DNA from: Candidatus Equicola stercoris
GTDB taxonomy: Bacteria; Bacteroidota; Bacteroidia; Bacteroidales; Bacteroidaceae
Length of the DNA: 55,693 bases
Direction: 5' to 3'
Assembly (NCBI GenBank): GCA_018065415.1
Contig: JAGHTI010000023.1
Location: forward strand, 1-55,693
Below the pieces are notes generated by a model that saw nothing but the letters and a program-made list of their open reading frames with translations, did no database searches and was not told where the DNA came from. Positions within the stretch are counted from its first letter, which is position 1, and every line of letters starts with the position of its first letter. The position numbers were made by a program, and so were the translations under genes. Of this stretch, positions 23,574 through 29,445 are shown in pieces.

Positions 23574-23876
23574 TCAAAGGATATTTATTATGGAAGAGAA
23601 ACCCGTAATGTCGAAAACTTCCTTAACCTGCGACTTCATGTTTTTCATCACCATCTTTCCTTTATGCTGATTAACGCTTTTTTGTAGCATTAGGAAAATT
23701 CTCAAACCTTGTGAGCTGGTATATTCCATATTTGTGCAATCGAATTCAATATCAGGATTTTCATCATTCAATAGTGACTGGATGTCAGCTTGAAATTGAT
23801 TGGCATTTGTTGTGTCGAGCCTTCCTGTGAGTTCTACAATGGTCTTAGTGCCATTTTTATTGATTTTTACTTCCAT
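23574..23876 (-). CDS. STAS-domain anti-sigma factor antagonist
   Basis: VELTGRLDTTNANQFQADI...DCTNMEYTSSQGLRIFL with conserved phospho-acceptor Ser. Confidence 0.88.
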   Translation of the reverse strand: MEVKINKNGTKTIVELTGRLDTTNANQFQADIQSLLNDENPDIEFDCTNMEYTSSQGLRIFLMLQKSVNQHKGKMVMKNMKSQVKEVFDITGFSSIINIL

Positions 23877-23882
23877 GATTAT

Positions 23883-24290
23883 TTATTTGTTTGGTAATTT
23901 CTTTTCCATTTGTAATACGTTGCAGTGGTTTTCATAGACATATGAAACCTTATCCATAAGTTGTTTACAGAGAAAGATTCCTAATCCACCGATTTCACGA
24001 TCTTCTGCAGATAAAGTTATGTCAGGATCTTCTTTTTTAAGAGGATCAAAAGGTACACCCTCATCACGAAGCGTAAGTATTAAAATATTGTTTTCTATTT
24101 CTGTTTTGACAATAATCCAGCCCATACCTTCTGTATAAGCATAACGAACGACATTTTCTACAGCCTCTTCCACAGCCAGACGAATCTTAAACTGAAAACT
24201 TTCGTCGTTGGGAATATCAGGAGACTGCATAATGGCTTCGATAATCTCTGCACTTTTGTTTTTTATAGGATCAAATCTTTTTTCCATCAT
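23883..24290 (-). CDS. RsbW/SpoIIAB-like anti-sigma regulatory kinase (HATPase_c)
   Basis: N-box EEAVENVVRYAY, G1 DEGVPFDP, GGLGIFLCKQLMD. Confidence 0.88.
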   Translation of the reverse strand: MMEKRFDPIKNKSAEIIEAIMQSPDIPNDESFQFKIRLAVEEAVENVVRYAYTEGMGWIIVKTEIENNILILTLRDEGVPFDPLKKEDPDITLSAEDREIGGLGIFLCKQLMDKVSYVYENHCNVLQMEKKLPNK

Positions 24291-24316: not shown

Positions 24317-24324
24317 CAAAGTTA
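24317..24324 (-). promoter_or_regulatory. -7 element (TAACTTTG, minus strand) for the RsbW-like/STAS pair
   Basis: Plus-strand CAAAGTTA upstream of the ATG at 24290. Confidence 0.5.
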
Positions 24325-24362
24325 CGATTTTTTTTCTTATCAAATAATATTTTGTAAAAATC

Positions 24363-25163
24363 TTATTCCAAATACTTGTTTCGTAGAGCTGTCATGTCAT
24401 CATCGGATAGCAATAATTGGTTGTGTAGATAATCCTCCATGCTACCATATTCGCTATCTATGAGTTTCATTGCATTGATGAAGTTTTCCACGCTGACTCC
24501 TATAAAAGCTTGGATGACTTTCAATTCTTCTTCTCCGCCCCCAATAGCTGATATCCGTTCTTTAACTATGTCAATACGTTTCTGATAATAGTTATTTGAC
24601 TTGTCAAAGTCTTCTATAATAACATCCATATCAGCACCAAGTGCGGCGAGGAGAAAAGCGGCACCAAGCCCTGTTCTATCTTTTCCTTCAGAACAATGCC
24701 AATAACATGCTCCATCATTTGTATTTAGGACATTCATAATGAAGACAGAATATTGTAATTGAGTGTATTCGTTTACTACCATTGACGGATATAGAGTTCT
24801 TGCAGTTTCCTTGCCTTTTTCCGTAAATGCTGCAGTCATTAGATAGTCAGGCAGGTTACGATATGCTTCTGCGGGAAATTGTTCTATCTTCTGATCTGTA
24901 TGCATATCCAATGTGGGTAGCCATAAATTGTCAGCTCCTGGTATGTTGCAATCAGGTTTATATGACACTTCTCCTTCTGTACGAAAATCAAAGATGTGTC
25001 GTAAGTGTATCTTTTGAAAATATAGGATATCTTCTTCAGATGCGTCTTTTAGAAATCCTCCACGTAATAGTCGATTATACTTAATCGTCCTTCCGTCATG
25101 CATCTTATATCCACCTATGTCACGCACATTAGGTATGCTTTTAAATTCCCAGCTCATCGGCAA
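24363..25163 (-). CDS. Tyrosine/dual-specificity phosphatase (Y_phosphatase3-like)
   Basis: CX5R P-loop YWHCSEGKDRTGLGAAFLLAALGAD; N-terminal NVRDIGGYKMHDGRTIKYNRLLRGG. Confidence 0.88.
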   Translation of the reverse strand: MPMSWEFKSIPNVRDIGGYKMHDGRTIKYNRLLRGGFLKDASEEDILYFQKIHLRHIFDFRTEGEVSYKPDCNIPGADNLWLPTLDMHTDQKIEQFPAEAYRNLPDYLMTAAFTEKGKETARTLYPSMVVNEYTQLQYSVFIMNVLNTNDGACYWHCSEGKDRTGLGAAFLLAALGADMDVIIEDFDKSNNYYQKRIDIVKERISAIGGGEEELKVIQAFIGVSVENFINAMKLIDSEYGSMEDYLHNQLLLSDDDMTALRNKYLE

Positions 25164-26569
25164 ATATTTTCTTTAACGAAATCTTTCATAAATGGTTCTT
25201 CGATTCCTCTTTGAATAAAAAGTAGAAAATAAAACGAAGCATAAGGTTTTATAATCTTGTCTATTTCATGTATCTCAGCTTTATTGTGTGCCCCATAATA
25301 TTCCATGACAAATATTTCCCAAACTCTTAACATCTGTGCACATGAGATATGGTATAGTTTCTGCGTCAAATTTTCATCATCAACATGTGTGACAAACCAA
25401 AACATGCCGAGATCGAACTTAGGGTCTCCATATGCAAAGTCTGCCAAATCAATCCAGTAGTTTTTTTTCTCATCGGTAATGATATTGCCGATATGTATGT
25501 CACCATGACAGCATGTGATTGCGTCTGGCGTAGAATTGATAAAGTTGTGTGCCTTTGATTTCTCTTCTTTTGTCAGAAAAGTTGCGTCATTCACTAAATG
25601 ATGAAATTTCTTTTTTATACTTGGGAAATTCTGTTTTCTGCAAGGTGTGCTATGCAGTTTCTTACATTCCTTGGCAAATTCTTTGGCATAAAATTCCAAC
25701 TTCTCTGGATTGTTGCTTATTGCTCTTGCAAAAGACTGTTTTTGTGTAATGCGTTCAAATTCTACACCGATACGTATCCCATCTGTGACCAGGCTATATG
25801 CTTTAGGAATGTTAAGTCCCAAATCCATTATGTTCCATGATGTATATAACTCTGTGATAGGTGTTTCAAGTGGGATGTATTCTGCATATAGTTTAATCAT
25901 GGATTTGCCGTCCTTGTGATTGTAACTAATCGCAGTGAATCCGTCTCCACTTTGTTCGTAGTTGTCAAGGTTTATTTTCTCTGGTTTTGGCTCTCCGAAC
26001 ACTTGTGTAAGCAAGTGTGTGAACTCTGAGAAGGCAAAAGTACCTGCTAATTCGCATAGGGCTCTGGCAAGACCTCTATAATGCCATTCATGATCAGGCT
26101 TCCCTCCAGGTGCATGAAATCTATCCCATAACTTGTCACCGAGTTCCATATAGTCATGATAAATTGCTCGCATGTTAGACAGTTTGTCTCCCAAAGCAAT
26201 AATCTTTGCATCACGACTAGAATTCTCAAGTCTATTTATGGCTGCTAGTTTTCTCTCTCTCCAACTGTCAGTTTCACTTTTGTCAGTTACTGGTTTCTCA
26301 CTTTCAGAAGCGACGAGTGATGCGACTCTTTCTCCGAATTCTTTTTTTATGTCATCAATGCTAGTCCCGGTGTCTTCTACTACGTCATGAAGGGCAGCGG
26401 CTGCAAGCATCTCTTGATCGGAGGTGATAGTCGCAACAATTTCTATTGCTTCTAATGGATGCACAATATAAGGAAACCCTTTGCCTCTACGTTCTGTATT
26501 TGCATGAGCATTTACCGCAAAAATTATCGCTTTATCCAACAATGTGCTATCCATATACTTATTTGCCAT
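25154..26569 (-). CDS. SpoT/MESH1-like HD hydrolase domain fused to an APH-family phosphotransferase
   Basis: N-term IVHPLEAIEIVATITSDQEMLAAAALHDVVEDTG...ALGDKLSNMRAI; C-term CCHGDIHIGNIITDEKKNYWIDLADFAYGDPKFDLGMF. Confidence 0.85.
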   Translation of the reverse strand: MANKYMDSTLLDKAIIFAVNAHANTERRGKGFPYIVHPLEAIEIVATITSDQEMLAAAALHDVVEDTGTSIDDIKKEFGERVASLVASESEKPVTDKSETDSWRERKLAAINRLENSSRDAKIIALGDKLSNMRAIYHDYMELGDKLWDRFHAPGGKPDHEWHYRGLARALCELAGTFAFSEFTHLLTQVFGEPKPEKINLDNYEQSGDGFTAISYNHKDGKSMIKLYAEYIPLETPITELYTSWNIMDLGLNIPKAYSLVTDGIRIGVEFERITQKQSFARAISNNPEKLEFYAKEFAKECKKLHSTPCRKQNFPSIKKKFHHLVNDATFLTKEEKSKAHNFINSTPDAITCCHGDIHIGNIITDEKKNYWIDLADFAYGDPKFDLGMFWFVTHVDDENLTQKLYHISCAQMLRVWEIFVMEYYGAHNKAEIHEIDKIIKPYASFYFLLFIQRGIEEPFMKDFVKENICR

Positions 26570-26586
26570 AGTAAAATTCTATTTTA

Positions 26587-27687
26587 TTATTTTTTTAAGA
26601 ATGGTAAATCTTTTGTTGATTCTATGAGCCGTTTGGCTCTTTCTTGATTATATGGAGTTTCACCATTCAAGGTGTCAAAAAATTTTGTTAGTCCATGTAT
26701 GCTAACATTATTTTTTAATTGATAGACAATACATAAATTTTGTAGTCCTATTGTTGATGTAACAATATCAAGGTCAGTCCCGCCTATCTGGTGTAAAGCA
26801 AGCTGATATGCATCTTCCCAATAATTATTTTTCAGCGTTTCTATGTCTCCAAGAGTTTTGAATCCTAGTTTTTGAAGTATTTTGAGATAAGGTAGGGTCG
26901 TGGTTGGATGTATTTCTGCTTGGTTTATTGCTGCGATTTTATCTGTAAGACGTTTGAATGGATTCAGCTCAAGGTAGCGTGCAAAAGAGTCTCCATCAAG
27001 TTTTATTTCCGCAAACTTCCCATCGCGAAGTAGATTTTGAATCTTATAACGATATTCGTTCAATGCTGTCCTGATACGACTGAATTCATCATCAGCTAGT
27101 TCCAACATGCCTGCTAGTCGGTTGAGAGTTCTTATGTATTCCTGCGGAACTTCAACATCAGTTTTGTATCCATTGTCATGATATATGCTTGCCCATGCAT
27201 GCTGAAGAGTTGTTCGCATTTGTATTTCAAAACGATAGTCGTTGATTTCAGGCATCTGTTCATCATAATAGACAGATTTTGGAATTCTGCATATATAATG
27301 AAGTGACATATACCCAAAACTGTTCAATTCGTGCATCTTTCGCTTATCAACAGATTCATTCCAATCAATATCAAAATTGTTTTCTATCAATGCTGCAATT
27401 TTGTCAACTTCATCGGAATAAAAAGTTATTACACGTGCTCCGAATATGTCAGTTAGATCAGATAGGAAACGGTACTTTGCCCCTTTTAACTCAAGTTTCC
27501 CTGCTAAAGACTTTTCTGTTTTGACACGTCCGTCAACTGCGGTCACCAAGATATTGTTTTCTTTGAGCAAGGCTTTGAGTTTGTCTAATACTATCTCTTT
27601 CATTTTCTTGAAGACGGGAAGCATCTGTTCATATTCTTCAAGAATCATTGTACAATGCAGGTCAAGTCCGTATTCCTCTGGTTCCAT
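26587..27687 (-). CDS. RelA/SpoT-domain nucleotide pyrophosphokinase (single-domain alarmone synthetase-like)
   Basis: VDGRVKTEKSLAGKL...SDLTDIFGARVITFYSDEVD...SFGYMSLHYIC...RFEIQMRTTLQHAWASIYHDNGYK. Confidence 0.88.
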   Translation of the reverse strand: MEPEEYGLDLHCTMILEEYEQMLPVFKKMKEIVLDKLKALLKENNILVTAVDGRVKTEKSLAGKLELKGAKYRFLSDLTDIFGARVITFYSDEVDKIAALIENNFDIDWNESVDKRKMHELNSFGYMSLHYICRIPKSVYYDEQMPEINDYRFEIQMRTTLQHAWASIYHDNGYKTDVEVPQEYIRTLNRLAGMLELADDEFSRIRTALNEYRYKIQNLLRDGKFAEIKLDGDSFARYLELNPFKRLTDKIAAINQAEIHPTTTLPYLKILQKLGFKTLGDIETLKNNYWEDAYQLALHQIGGTDLDIVTSTIGLQNLCIVYQLKNNVSIHGLTKFFDTLNGETPYNQERAKRLIESTKDLPFLKK

Positions 27688-27696
27688 GGGATTTGA

Positions 27697-29445
27697 TTAA
27701 AAGTTAATGGAGAATGATGCACCAAATGTCCAAAGGTTTAATCTCTTGGATGTCTTAAACTCGTCATCTTCTGTTAAAACCTTTAATTCAGGATGTTCTT
27801 CTATTGGGTACTTCTCCTTCACTTCGTCTGATACATAATGATAATTTGCTGTGTAATTATTTTTCGCACTATCAAAATCAGCAAAAATCTTCCATGAGAA
27901 ATTATTTTTGTATTTGTATGTAAAACTTAATCCAAAAACATAGTTGAATACATTGTCCCCTTCGACTTTCATGATGTCATATTCGTCTGAAATGATTTTT
28001 TCCTCATCCAAGGCATAATTGTATTCTGTACTTACTCCGGGCATTGTCACCTCGTTAGCAGCAAATTGTGTCCCATCAGGGCGCTCAAACATATACATAG
28101 GTGTTTGAGTGGTTCCATCAAATGTATAGATTTGATTCCCTTTTTCATCGCGGAAAGCTTTGCGGAAGCCATTACGTGCTTGATATGAGATGCCACCTGA
28201 AAGTCGTGAACCAACAAGAAATTTTCCACCAACAGCAAGGCGTTTTGATAGTGGTAGGTTACCATATATACCCGCATCAAGTGATATATCCATAAAATTA
28301 TTGTTCTCGATGCTCAAATTGTAAACACCAGGAATGTTGAATTCTTCTAACGCCTCGTTAAGTTCATTCCATACACTTTTGTCGTTAGATGTTAATGAGG
28401 TGTTTTTTGTTGGTGTTGTTGTGACGCGTGCCATACCACCAAAACCGAGATATTTATTGATGAAATAAGCCCCTTCAACACCAACTACAGAACTTGTTCC
28501 TAAATCAATTACACTTTCTCCATAATCTTCACTAGAGAAGACGATGGAGTTACTATGTGAAGCAATACCCATTTGGATGTCGAAGAATGAAGGGTGATTA
28601 GGGTTAATAAGGAAATCTTGTTCAAGACGACAGATGCCCTTGTTTTTGTAAATGAGGTCGCCAAGCCAATATCCAAGTTCTGTTGACATGATACCGATAC
28701 CTGCACCAGCTATAACATCGCTTATCCAATGACGGTTGTTAAGAACACGCATAATACCTGTTCCTGTAGCTACTGCATAACCTCCAACAGAAAACCAAGG
28801 CGAACGAGTTAAACCATATTCTTTGTGTAATACTGTTGCTGCTACGAAGGCTGTTGCTGTGTGGCCAGATGGAAAAGAGTTCTCTGAAGAATTGTCTGGA
28901 CGCATCTCCTTTACAGAGTATTTTGTTGCATTCACCGCCAATGCCATAACAGCATTAGATGCTAATGTACTAACAAGGAATCTGTCCCAGCTAGAACGCC
29001 CCTGATATCCAAATGCTTTCAGCCCTAAGATAAGAGCGTATGGCGAGAATTGTGTGTAATTGTCAATTTCAGTCTTGAAATTTTCATCAAATGTGAAACG
29101 TGCAGAACGGAATGCCTTTTTTTTGCTTTTAATTAGGAAGGAACTAAGAAAAATTGGAATGCCAGCATAGGTAAGATCACGTTTCCATGTGTAGTATGGA
29201 TGTGCCTTTGTGTTCCCTGGTTGCTCAGCGATACAGATTTCATGCGCCCAGTTGGTGTATGTCTTTAACTGTTGTGGATCACTGAGTGTAGGTGCTTCTA
29301 GTGGCGAAATACCTAATGCCTCTGCCGATTCGGCATCCGTTAGGGGCTCATCTGCCTGTGCGAGCAATAATGAGTCTGTATCTATGCTTGCAGATGCAAC
29401 AGAAGATATAAATATTGATAGAATGAAAATAATGATATTTTTCAT
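27697..29445 (-). CDS. PAP2 phosphatase with C-terminal outer-membrane beta-barrel-like region
   Basis: Signal peptide; PAP2 motifs KYSVKEMRP, FPSGHT, RVLNNRHWISD; C-terminal amphipathic strands ending in aromatic F (WTFGASFSINF). Confidence 0.8.
   Translation of the reverse strand: MKNIIIFILSIFISSVASASIDTDSLLLAQADEPLTDAESAEALGISPLEAPTLSDPQQLKTYTNWAHEICIAEQPGNTKAHPYYTWKRDLTYAGIPIFLSSFLIKSKKKAFRSARFTFDENFKTEIDNYTQFSPYALILGLKAFGYQGRSSWDRFLVSTLASNAVMALAVNATKYSVKEMRPDNSSENSFPSGHTATAFVAATVLHKEYGLTRSPWFSVGGYAVATGTGIMRVLNNRHWISDVIAGAGIGIMSTELGYWLGDLIYKNKGICRLEQDFLINPNHPSFFDIQMGIASHSNSIVFSSEDYGESVIDLGTSSVVGVEGAYFINKYLGFGGMARVTTTPTKNTSLTSNDKSVWNELNEALEEFNIPGVYNLSIENNNFMDISLDAGIYGNLPLSKRLAVGGKFLVGSRLSGGISYQARNGFRKAFRDEKGNQIYTFDGTTQTPMYMFERPDGTQFAANEVTMPGVSTEYNYALDEEKIISDEYDIMKVEGDNVFNYVFGLSFTYKYKNNFSWKIFADFDSAKNNYTANYHYVSDEVKEKYPIEEHPELKVLTEDDEFKTSKRLNLWTFGASFSINF

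Follow-up and report, generated by a model that had tools for sequence, protein, structure and literature searches.

A stretch of 55,693 nucleotides (the window), from a Bacteroidales metagenome-assembled genome (MAG) of 1.75 Mb and 82% completeness that lies near horse-gut Bacteroidaceae MAGs, encodes a small alarmone synthetase and a small alarmone hydrolase beside the kinase and the antagonist of a partner switch. We lean, by a slender balance of probability, towards the reading that this partner-switching phosphorelay controls a dedicated synthetase/hydrolase pair. Partner switches are known to act on sigma factors; in Pseudomonas, diguanylate cyclases are also among their targets. Here the genes are present with intact motifs, their linkage is conserved and the two switch components are single-copy; that the pairing is kept in relatives suggests an externally switched alarmone circuit rather than a toxin-antitoxin system. 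If the synthetase is controlled directly, gut Bacteroidales could couple external cues to (p)ppGpp without going through the ribosome-linked Rel, and a testable target would be at hand for RsbW and STAS proteins wherever a genome lacks a SigB/F-type partner for them. Our reading of the literature, partial in coverage and hence no proof of absence, found no alarmone synthetase under a partner switch.

The genes form a run on the minus strand. The first-pass annotation had claimed three open reading frames, all of which were recovered, with families clear by profile. They are the synthetase SYN (26587..27687, 366 aa; PF04607, 7.6e-17), made up of a catalytic domain (about residues 1-213) and a helical C-terminal domain (about 225-366); HD-APH (25154..26569, 471 aa), in which a small alarmone hydrolase (SAH; residues 1-195; HD_4, 2.6e-19) is fused to a kinase of the TIGR02172/APH fold (residues 196-471; TIGR02172, 7.5e-73 and over the cut-off; APH, 9.3e-8); and PTP, a Y_phosphatase3-type CX5R phosphatase (24363..25157; PF13350, 2.4e-53; 8dhi, 4.6e-28). 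All three are far beyond chance, because 200 shuffled versions of the region yielded no stop-free frame longer than 176 codons. The 17-nt gap described between SYN and HD-APH is there, and so is the overlap of HD-APH with PTP, but the start proposed for PTP, a TTG at 25163, is less likely than the ATG at 25157, from which the protein has 264 aa and the overlap is 4 nt (ATGA). Every motif quoted for the synthetase, hydrolase, kinase and phosphatase is present, including the PTP signature CSEGKDR, and most motif residues of the synthetase, hydrolase and kinase are invariant across relatives.

The same-strand run extends past this trio, with genes that the first-pass annotation overlooked. After 72 nt it continues with an RsbW-type serine kinase/anti-sigma ATPase (23883..24290; PF13581, HATPase_c_2, 1.3e-21) and, 6 nt further on, with STAS, an RsbV-type antagonist (23574..23876; PF01740, 2.1e-17; TIGR00377 over the cut-off). 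A HATPase_c_2 kinase thus adjoins a STAS protein with a phosphorylatable serine, which is the make-up of a partner switch; STAS has the motif YTSSQGLR, and the N, G1 and G2 boxes of RsbW are visible in the alignment. Each is the sole match to its domain in the window genome, and therefore the only RsbW-STAS pair in this 82%-complete assembly is the one that adjoins the alarmone genes. At the other end of the run, a PAP2 phosphatase with a possible beta-barrel C-terminal part (27697..29445, minus strand; PF01569, 4.8e-17) lies 9 nt upstream of SYN; as it is directly upstream elsewhere only in the near-identical locus L004, it was dropped as an operon member and is probably a mere neighbour.

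Linkage was followed through 23 independent SYN loci, with about 8 kb read on each side. SYN occurs in 14 of the 36 genomes of the window's genus (a weak hit in G015 left out) and is patchy across the order; one contig scan using SYN gave two loci only. The most constant partner of SYN is STAS, usually with RsbW: in 16 of the 23 loci a co-oriented STAS gene is no more than 5 kb away, and in the other seven (7/23) STAS is absent from the roughly 8 kb on each side and is found elsewhere in those genomes. As to the further neighbours of SYN, 13 loci have RsbW (on its own or as a fusion with SpoIIE), 11 the hydrolase, eight the kinase and four PTP. Within the genus alone, STAS is near SYN in 9/15 loci, against the chance of about 1.7% that STAS falls within 5 kb of a random point (binomial 5e-13), and a SpoIIE PP2C is found in 14/14 genomes with SYN as against 9/22 without it (Fisher 2.5e-4), both probabilities being open to inflation by shared genome ancestry. 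The first-pass annotation had proposed the conserved linkage of its trio as a check, which went against it: SYN, hydrolase, kinase and PTP occur together in two of the 23 loci (the window and L051), so the trio is not the conserved unit. Its notion of a private alarmone circuit fits better, since the hydrolase is linked in all nine independent loci of the window's own SYN subclade, where STAS is linked in eight and the kinase and PTP are variable.

Many SYN loci also carry a PP2C, usually a membrane dCache-HAMP-PP2C sensor and in some cases one fused to RsbW. The order is RsbW-SpoIIE-STAS-SYN-HD-APH in L046-L048 and SpoIIE-RsbW-STAS-SYN-HD-APH in L049; L046 has a dCache-HAMP-SpoIIE protein, and L005 and L049 have similar sensors. 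None is adjacent in the window, in whose genome the sole SpoIIE PP2C found is a response-regulator-PP2C protein on contig C1, away from the locus contig.

From these parts we propose that a serine in the YTSS motif of STAS would be the target of RsbW and that a signal-driven PP2C phosphatase would strip the phosphate off again. In one of its two phosphorylation states STAS would dock onto SYN, with the helical C-terminal domain as the likeliest site, and would turn synthesis of (p)ppGpp, the presumed product of SYN, on or off, either direction being possible; resetting the signal would fall to the linked hydrolase. A second reversible phosphorylation layer might come from the fused kinase and PTP, with the hydrolase, STAS or a small molecule as candidate substrates. 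The joint proposal, namely that a STAS adaptor gates SYN directly, allowing a membrane or two-component signal to set (p)ppGpp without a long RSH, and that the APH-type kinase is an extra arm of the switch, is in our judgement tentative, its chances falling a little below even.

A different account of the same linkage is co-regulation: RsbW and STAS would target a sigma factor, a transporter or a LuxR regulator, and SYN and HD-APH would be output genes or neighbours that have no direct contact with the switch. Related STAS genes do lie by CitMHS, ABC transporter and LuxR genes in STAS-rich genomes, and the 72-nt gap before RsbW holds a Bacteroidetes-type promoter-like site (24317..24344, minus strand, 16-nt spacer), so that RsbW-STAS may have a promoter of its own in the window. 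The site, whose spacer is near the lower limit of the lengths searched, hints at this only faintly; -33/-7 promoter-like sites are over-represented across the window (11 versus 3.06 expected). Against co-regulation, the gene immediately upstream of SYN is STAS in 13/23 loci, and in five genomes (the window's, G115, G376, G281 and G254) the single stand-alone STAS is the one beside SYN. Likewise no SigB/F/G-type sigma factor scored over the cut-off in the eight genomes tested, where RpoD-like sigma factors are present. We consider mere co-regulation unlikely, though it deserves attention.

SYN has a RelA_SpoT synthetase domain with intact catalytic motifs, invariant in their key residues across 23 aligned rows, and it is without the hydrolase, TGS and ACT domains of the long RSH proteins, which places it among the small alarmone synthetases (SAS). 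Its AF2 model (pLDDT 87.7) has a RelQ/RelP-like catalytic domain followed by the helical C-terminal domain, and RelQ/RelP chains are its best structure matches by sequence and by fold. Also present in the window genome are a long Rel frame (778 aa, contig C45) and a second RelA/SpoT protein, cut by a contig end, that has the appearance of a long RSH of the RshB type; the combination of Rel and RshB has been reported for Bacteroidia (PMC3153485). Given these two proteins and the RelQ/RelP-like fold of SYN, SYN and the hydrolase could simply supplement them as an auxiliary (p)ppGpp homeostasis pair, set by expression only, with the partner switch irrelevant. We find this improbable, as the STAS linkage and the SpoIIE co-occurrence are far above chance and as SYN differs from the housekeeping enzymes: the RelQ allosteric motifs KXKXKXXR, EFVT and LAMNFWAT, as listed in PMC10434055, are absent, the RelQ model NF053588 scores 60 bits against a cut-off of 320, and there is an extra C-terminal domain of about 140 aa. 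SYN was accordingly rejected as a RelQ, and also as a DsRel (SAS-TPR), there being no TPR match in Pfam at E 0.01. The C-terminal domain, at which STAS would bind in the partner-switch reading, shares about 49% mean identity among relatives, compared with 65% for the catalytic domain, and against the PDB it gave no match that stood out among the hits.

The suggestion in the first-pass annotation that the locus is toxSAS-like is unsupported: we found none of the hallmarks that were tested. Systems such as FaRel/ATfaRel, FaRel2 and CapRel do resemble the window in setting a RelA-type synthetase beside a possible regulator or hydrolase (PMC11782079, PMC9712102), and the 9/9 linkage of SYN to HD in the window's subclade, together with a sister SAS clade that is largely virus- or plasmid-borne, is what one might hope to see if SYN were a toxin with HD or STAS as its antitoxin. 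Yet by published criteria (PMC11782079) no antitoxin module of the pZFD or YXXY type is recognised: YXXY is absent from SYN and from the C-termini of its relatives, and SYN has only three cysteines, of which one lies in the C-terminal domain, without a cluster; an antitoxin of a novel kind is conceivable. The SYN profile scores 23 bits against CapRel, versus about 58-66 against RelQ/RelP chains (66 for the best RelQ-type chain), so SYN was rejected as a CapRel. Nor does the hydrolase behave as an obligate antitoxin, since it is linked in fewer than half of the 23 loci and no close match was found in 8/14 SYN genomes of the genus, a count limited by gaps in the MAGs and by diverged hydrolases; the hydrolase of the long Rel could protect the cell instead. 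The setting is chromosomal, with gcvTH and an RNA polymerase subunit gene nearby, and partner-switch genes stand where a toxSAS locus would have others. A toxSAS module is, on this showing, very improbable.

In the tree of SYN, all 23 SYN rows form a single clade (96/93) far from RelQ; the named toxSAS families are not on this tree, and a Mycobacterium prophage row (L122) serves only as a distant stand-in for them. Adjoining the SYN clade is a clade (99/88) of SAS of similar length that are borne by viruses, plasmids and Bacteroidota, largely by the first two. The virus and plasmid loci that were fetched had no STAS, RsbW or SpoIIE match, and such relatives form a sister clade; a viral, prophage or plasmid origin of the window SYN was therefore rejected. 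The window SYN falls in a 10-row subclade (95/86) with a hydrolase in every locus, compared with 2/13 outside it (Fisher 2.2e-4).

The mobile sister clade raises the thought that SYN acts as an abortive-infection effector against phage, for which the switch would serve as sensor, and in the PADLOC library SYN does hit one candidate family, PDC-S33, at 4.8e-16. That match, the only one, covers the synthetase domain alone. A fold search against viral models gave mainly matches of catalytic-domain size. No defence genes were recognised beside the SYN loci examined. The sensors, moreover, are dCache domains, which are typical of small-molecule sensing. Of the explanations considered, an anti-phage role seems to us the most far-fetched.

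The window STAS belongs to a six-row clade (98/95) in which every row is linked to SYN and HD. Genus-wide, SYN-linked and free STAS proteins are mixed and the label is weakly clustered (10 changes versus 13.7 when shuffled), so that the idea of SYN-linked STAS as one dedicated class fails except for the six-row clade. Identities of SYN and of its linked STAS are correlated (Mantel r 0.77; 0/5000 permutations), which speaks for co-inheritance and not for contact.

The model of the hydrolase-kinase fusion (pLDDT 90.6) matches SAHs from Leptospira levettii and Corynebacterium glutamicum (7qoe, 7qod) as well as APH/choline kinase folds, and the metal-site residues H37, H61, D62 and D128 are invariant in six fusions, as is proper to an SAH. 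Two loci, L051 and L052, encode hydrolase and TIGR02172 kinase separately; the fusion occurs in L004, L046-L049 and the window. In L097 (5150-6343, G005:C10) a TIGR02172-like APH is itself fused to STAS, beside a SpoIIE-RsbW protein and a CitMHS permease, and a 400-aa frame in G025:C57 shares this order of STAS and TIGR02172 matches; these fusions tie the TIGR02172-type kinase family to the partner switch and suggest an unsuspected regulatory context for it.

Two systems of Pseudomonas aeruginosa come closest in architecture. SiaABCD likewise has, within a single operon, a HAMP membrane PP2C, a kinase, a small adaptor whose state is switched by phosphorylation and a nucleotide second-messenger synthase to which that adaptor binds (PMC7647112, PMC8457831), but its output is a diguanylate cyclase and its adaptor a DUF1987 protein, whereas the window has a synthetase of the RelA/SpoT type, STAS as the adaptor and a hydrolase linked to them. 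SiaC must be unphosphorylated to activate SiaD (PMC8457831), and it is phosphorylated HsbA that binds the cyclase HsbD (PMC6482189). In HsbR-HsbA-HsbD, the PP2C/kinase regulator HsbR switches HsbA, the binder of a second-messenger synthase (PMC6482189), and the only PP2C of the window genome resembles HsbR in being a response-regulator-PP2C protein; unlike the window, that system makes c-di-GMP and not an alarmone, unites the kinase and phosphatase domains in HsbR and also controls sigma factors. Among alarmone enzymes, Tde-SAS (DsRel, SAS-TPR) and Tde-SAH of Treponema denticola pair an SAS bearing a C-terminal regulatory domain with an SAH that degrades its product (PMC10434055), although that domain is a TPR, the genes TDE1711 and TDE1690 are not adjacent, and STAS is unmentioned in PMC10434055.

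Several further arrangements were seen along the way. The window genome has a second TIGR02172 kinase (L085 8071-8910, G000:C54), beside a DUF4254 protein and a family 9 glycosyltransferase. STAS genes in L042, L088, L097 and L155 share recurrent surroundings, a CitMHS permease with TrkA_C, a PF13189 cytidylate-kinase-like protein and/or a hydrolase, and SYN is missing from several of these sets. Another recurrent set, in L033, L034 and L173, comprises an ABC transporter of about 965 aa, an unknown protein of 267 aa, STAS and LuxR, in that order; in L033 and L034 SYN lies between STAS and the following gene, which in L034 is LuxR. In L031, from another Bacteroidales genome, a weak hydrolase-like ORF directly precedes a long protein with a SYN-like N-terminal domain. 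Finally, a stand-alone SAS related to SYN (L121 436-1572) sits on a 3.5-kb cryptic Klebsiella plasmid with little else annotated.
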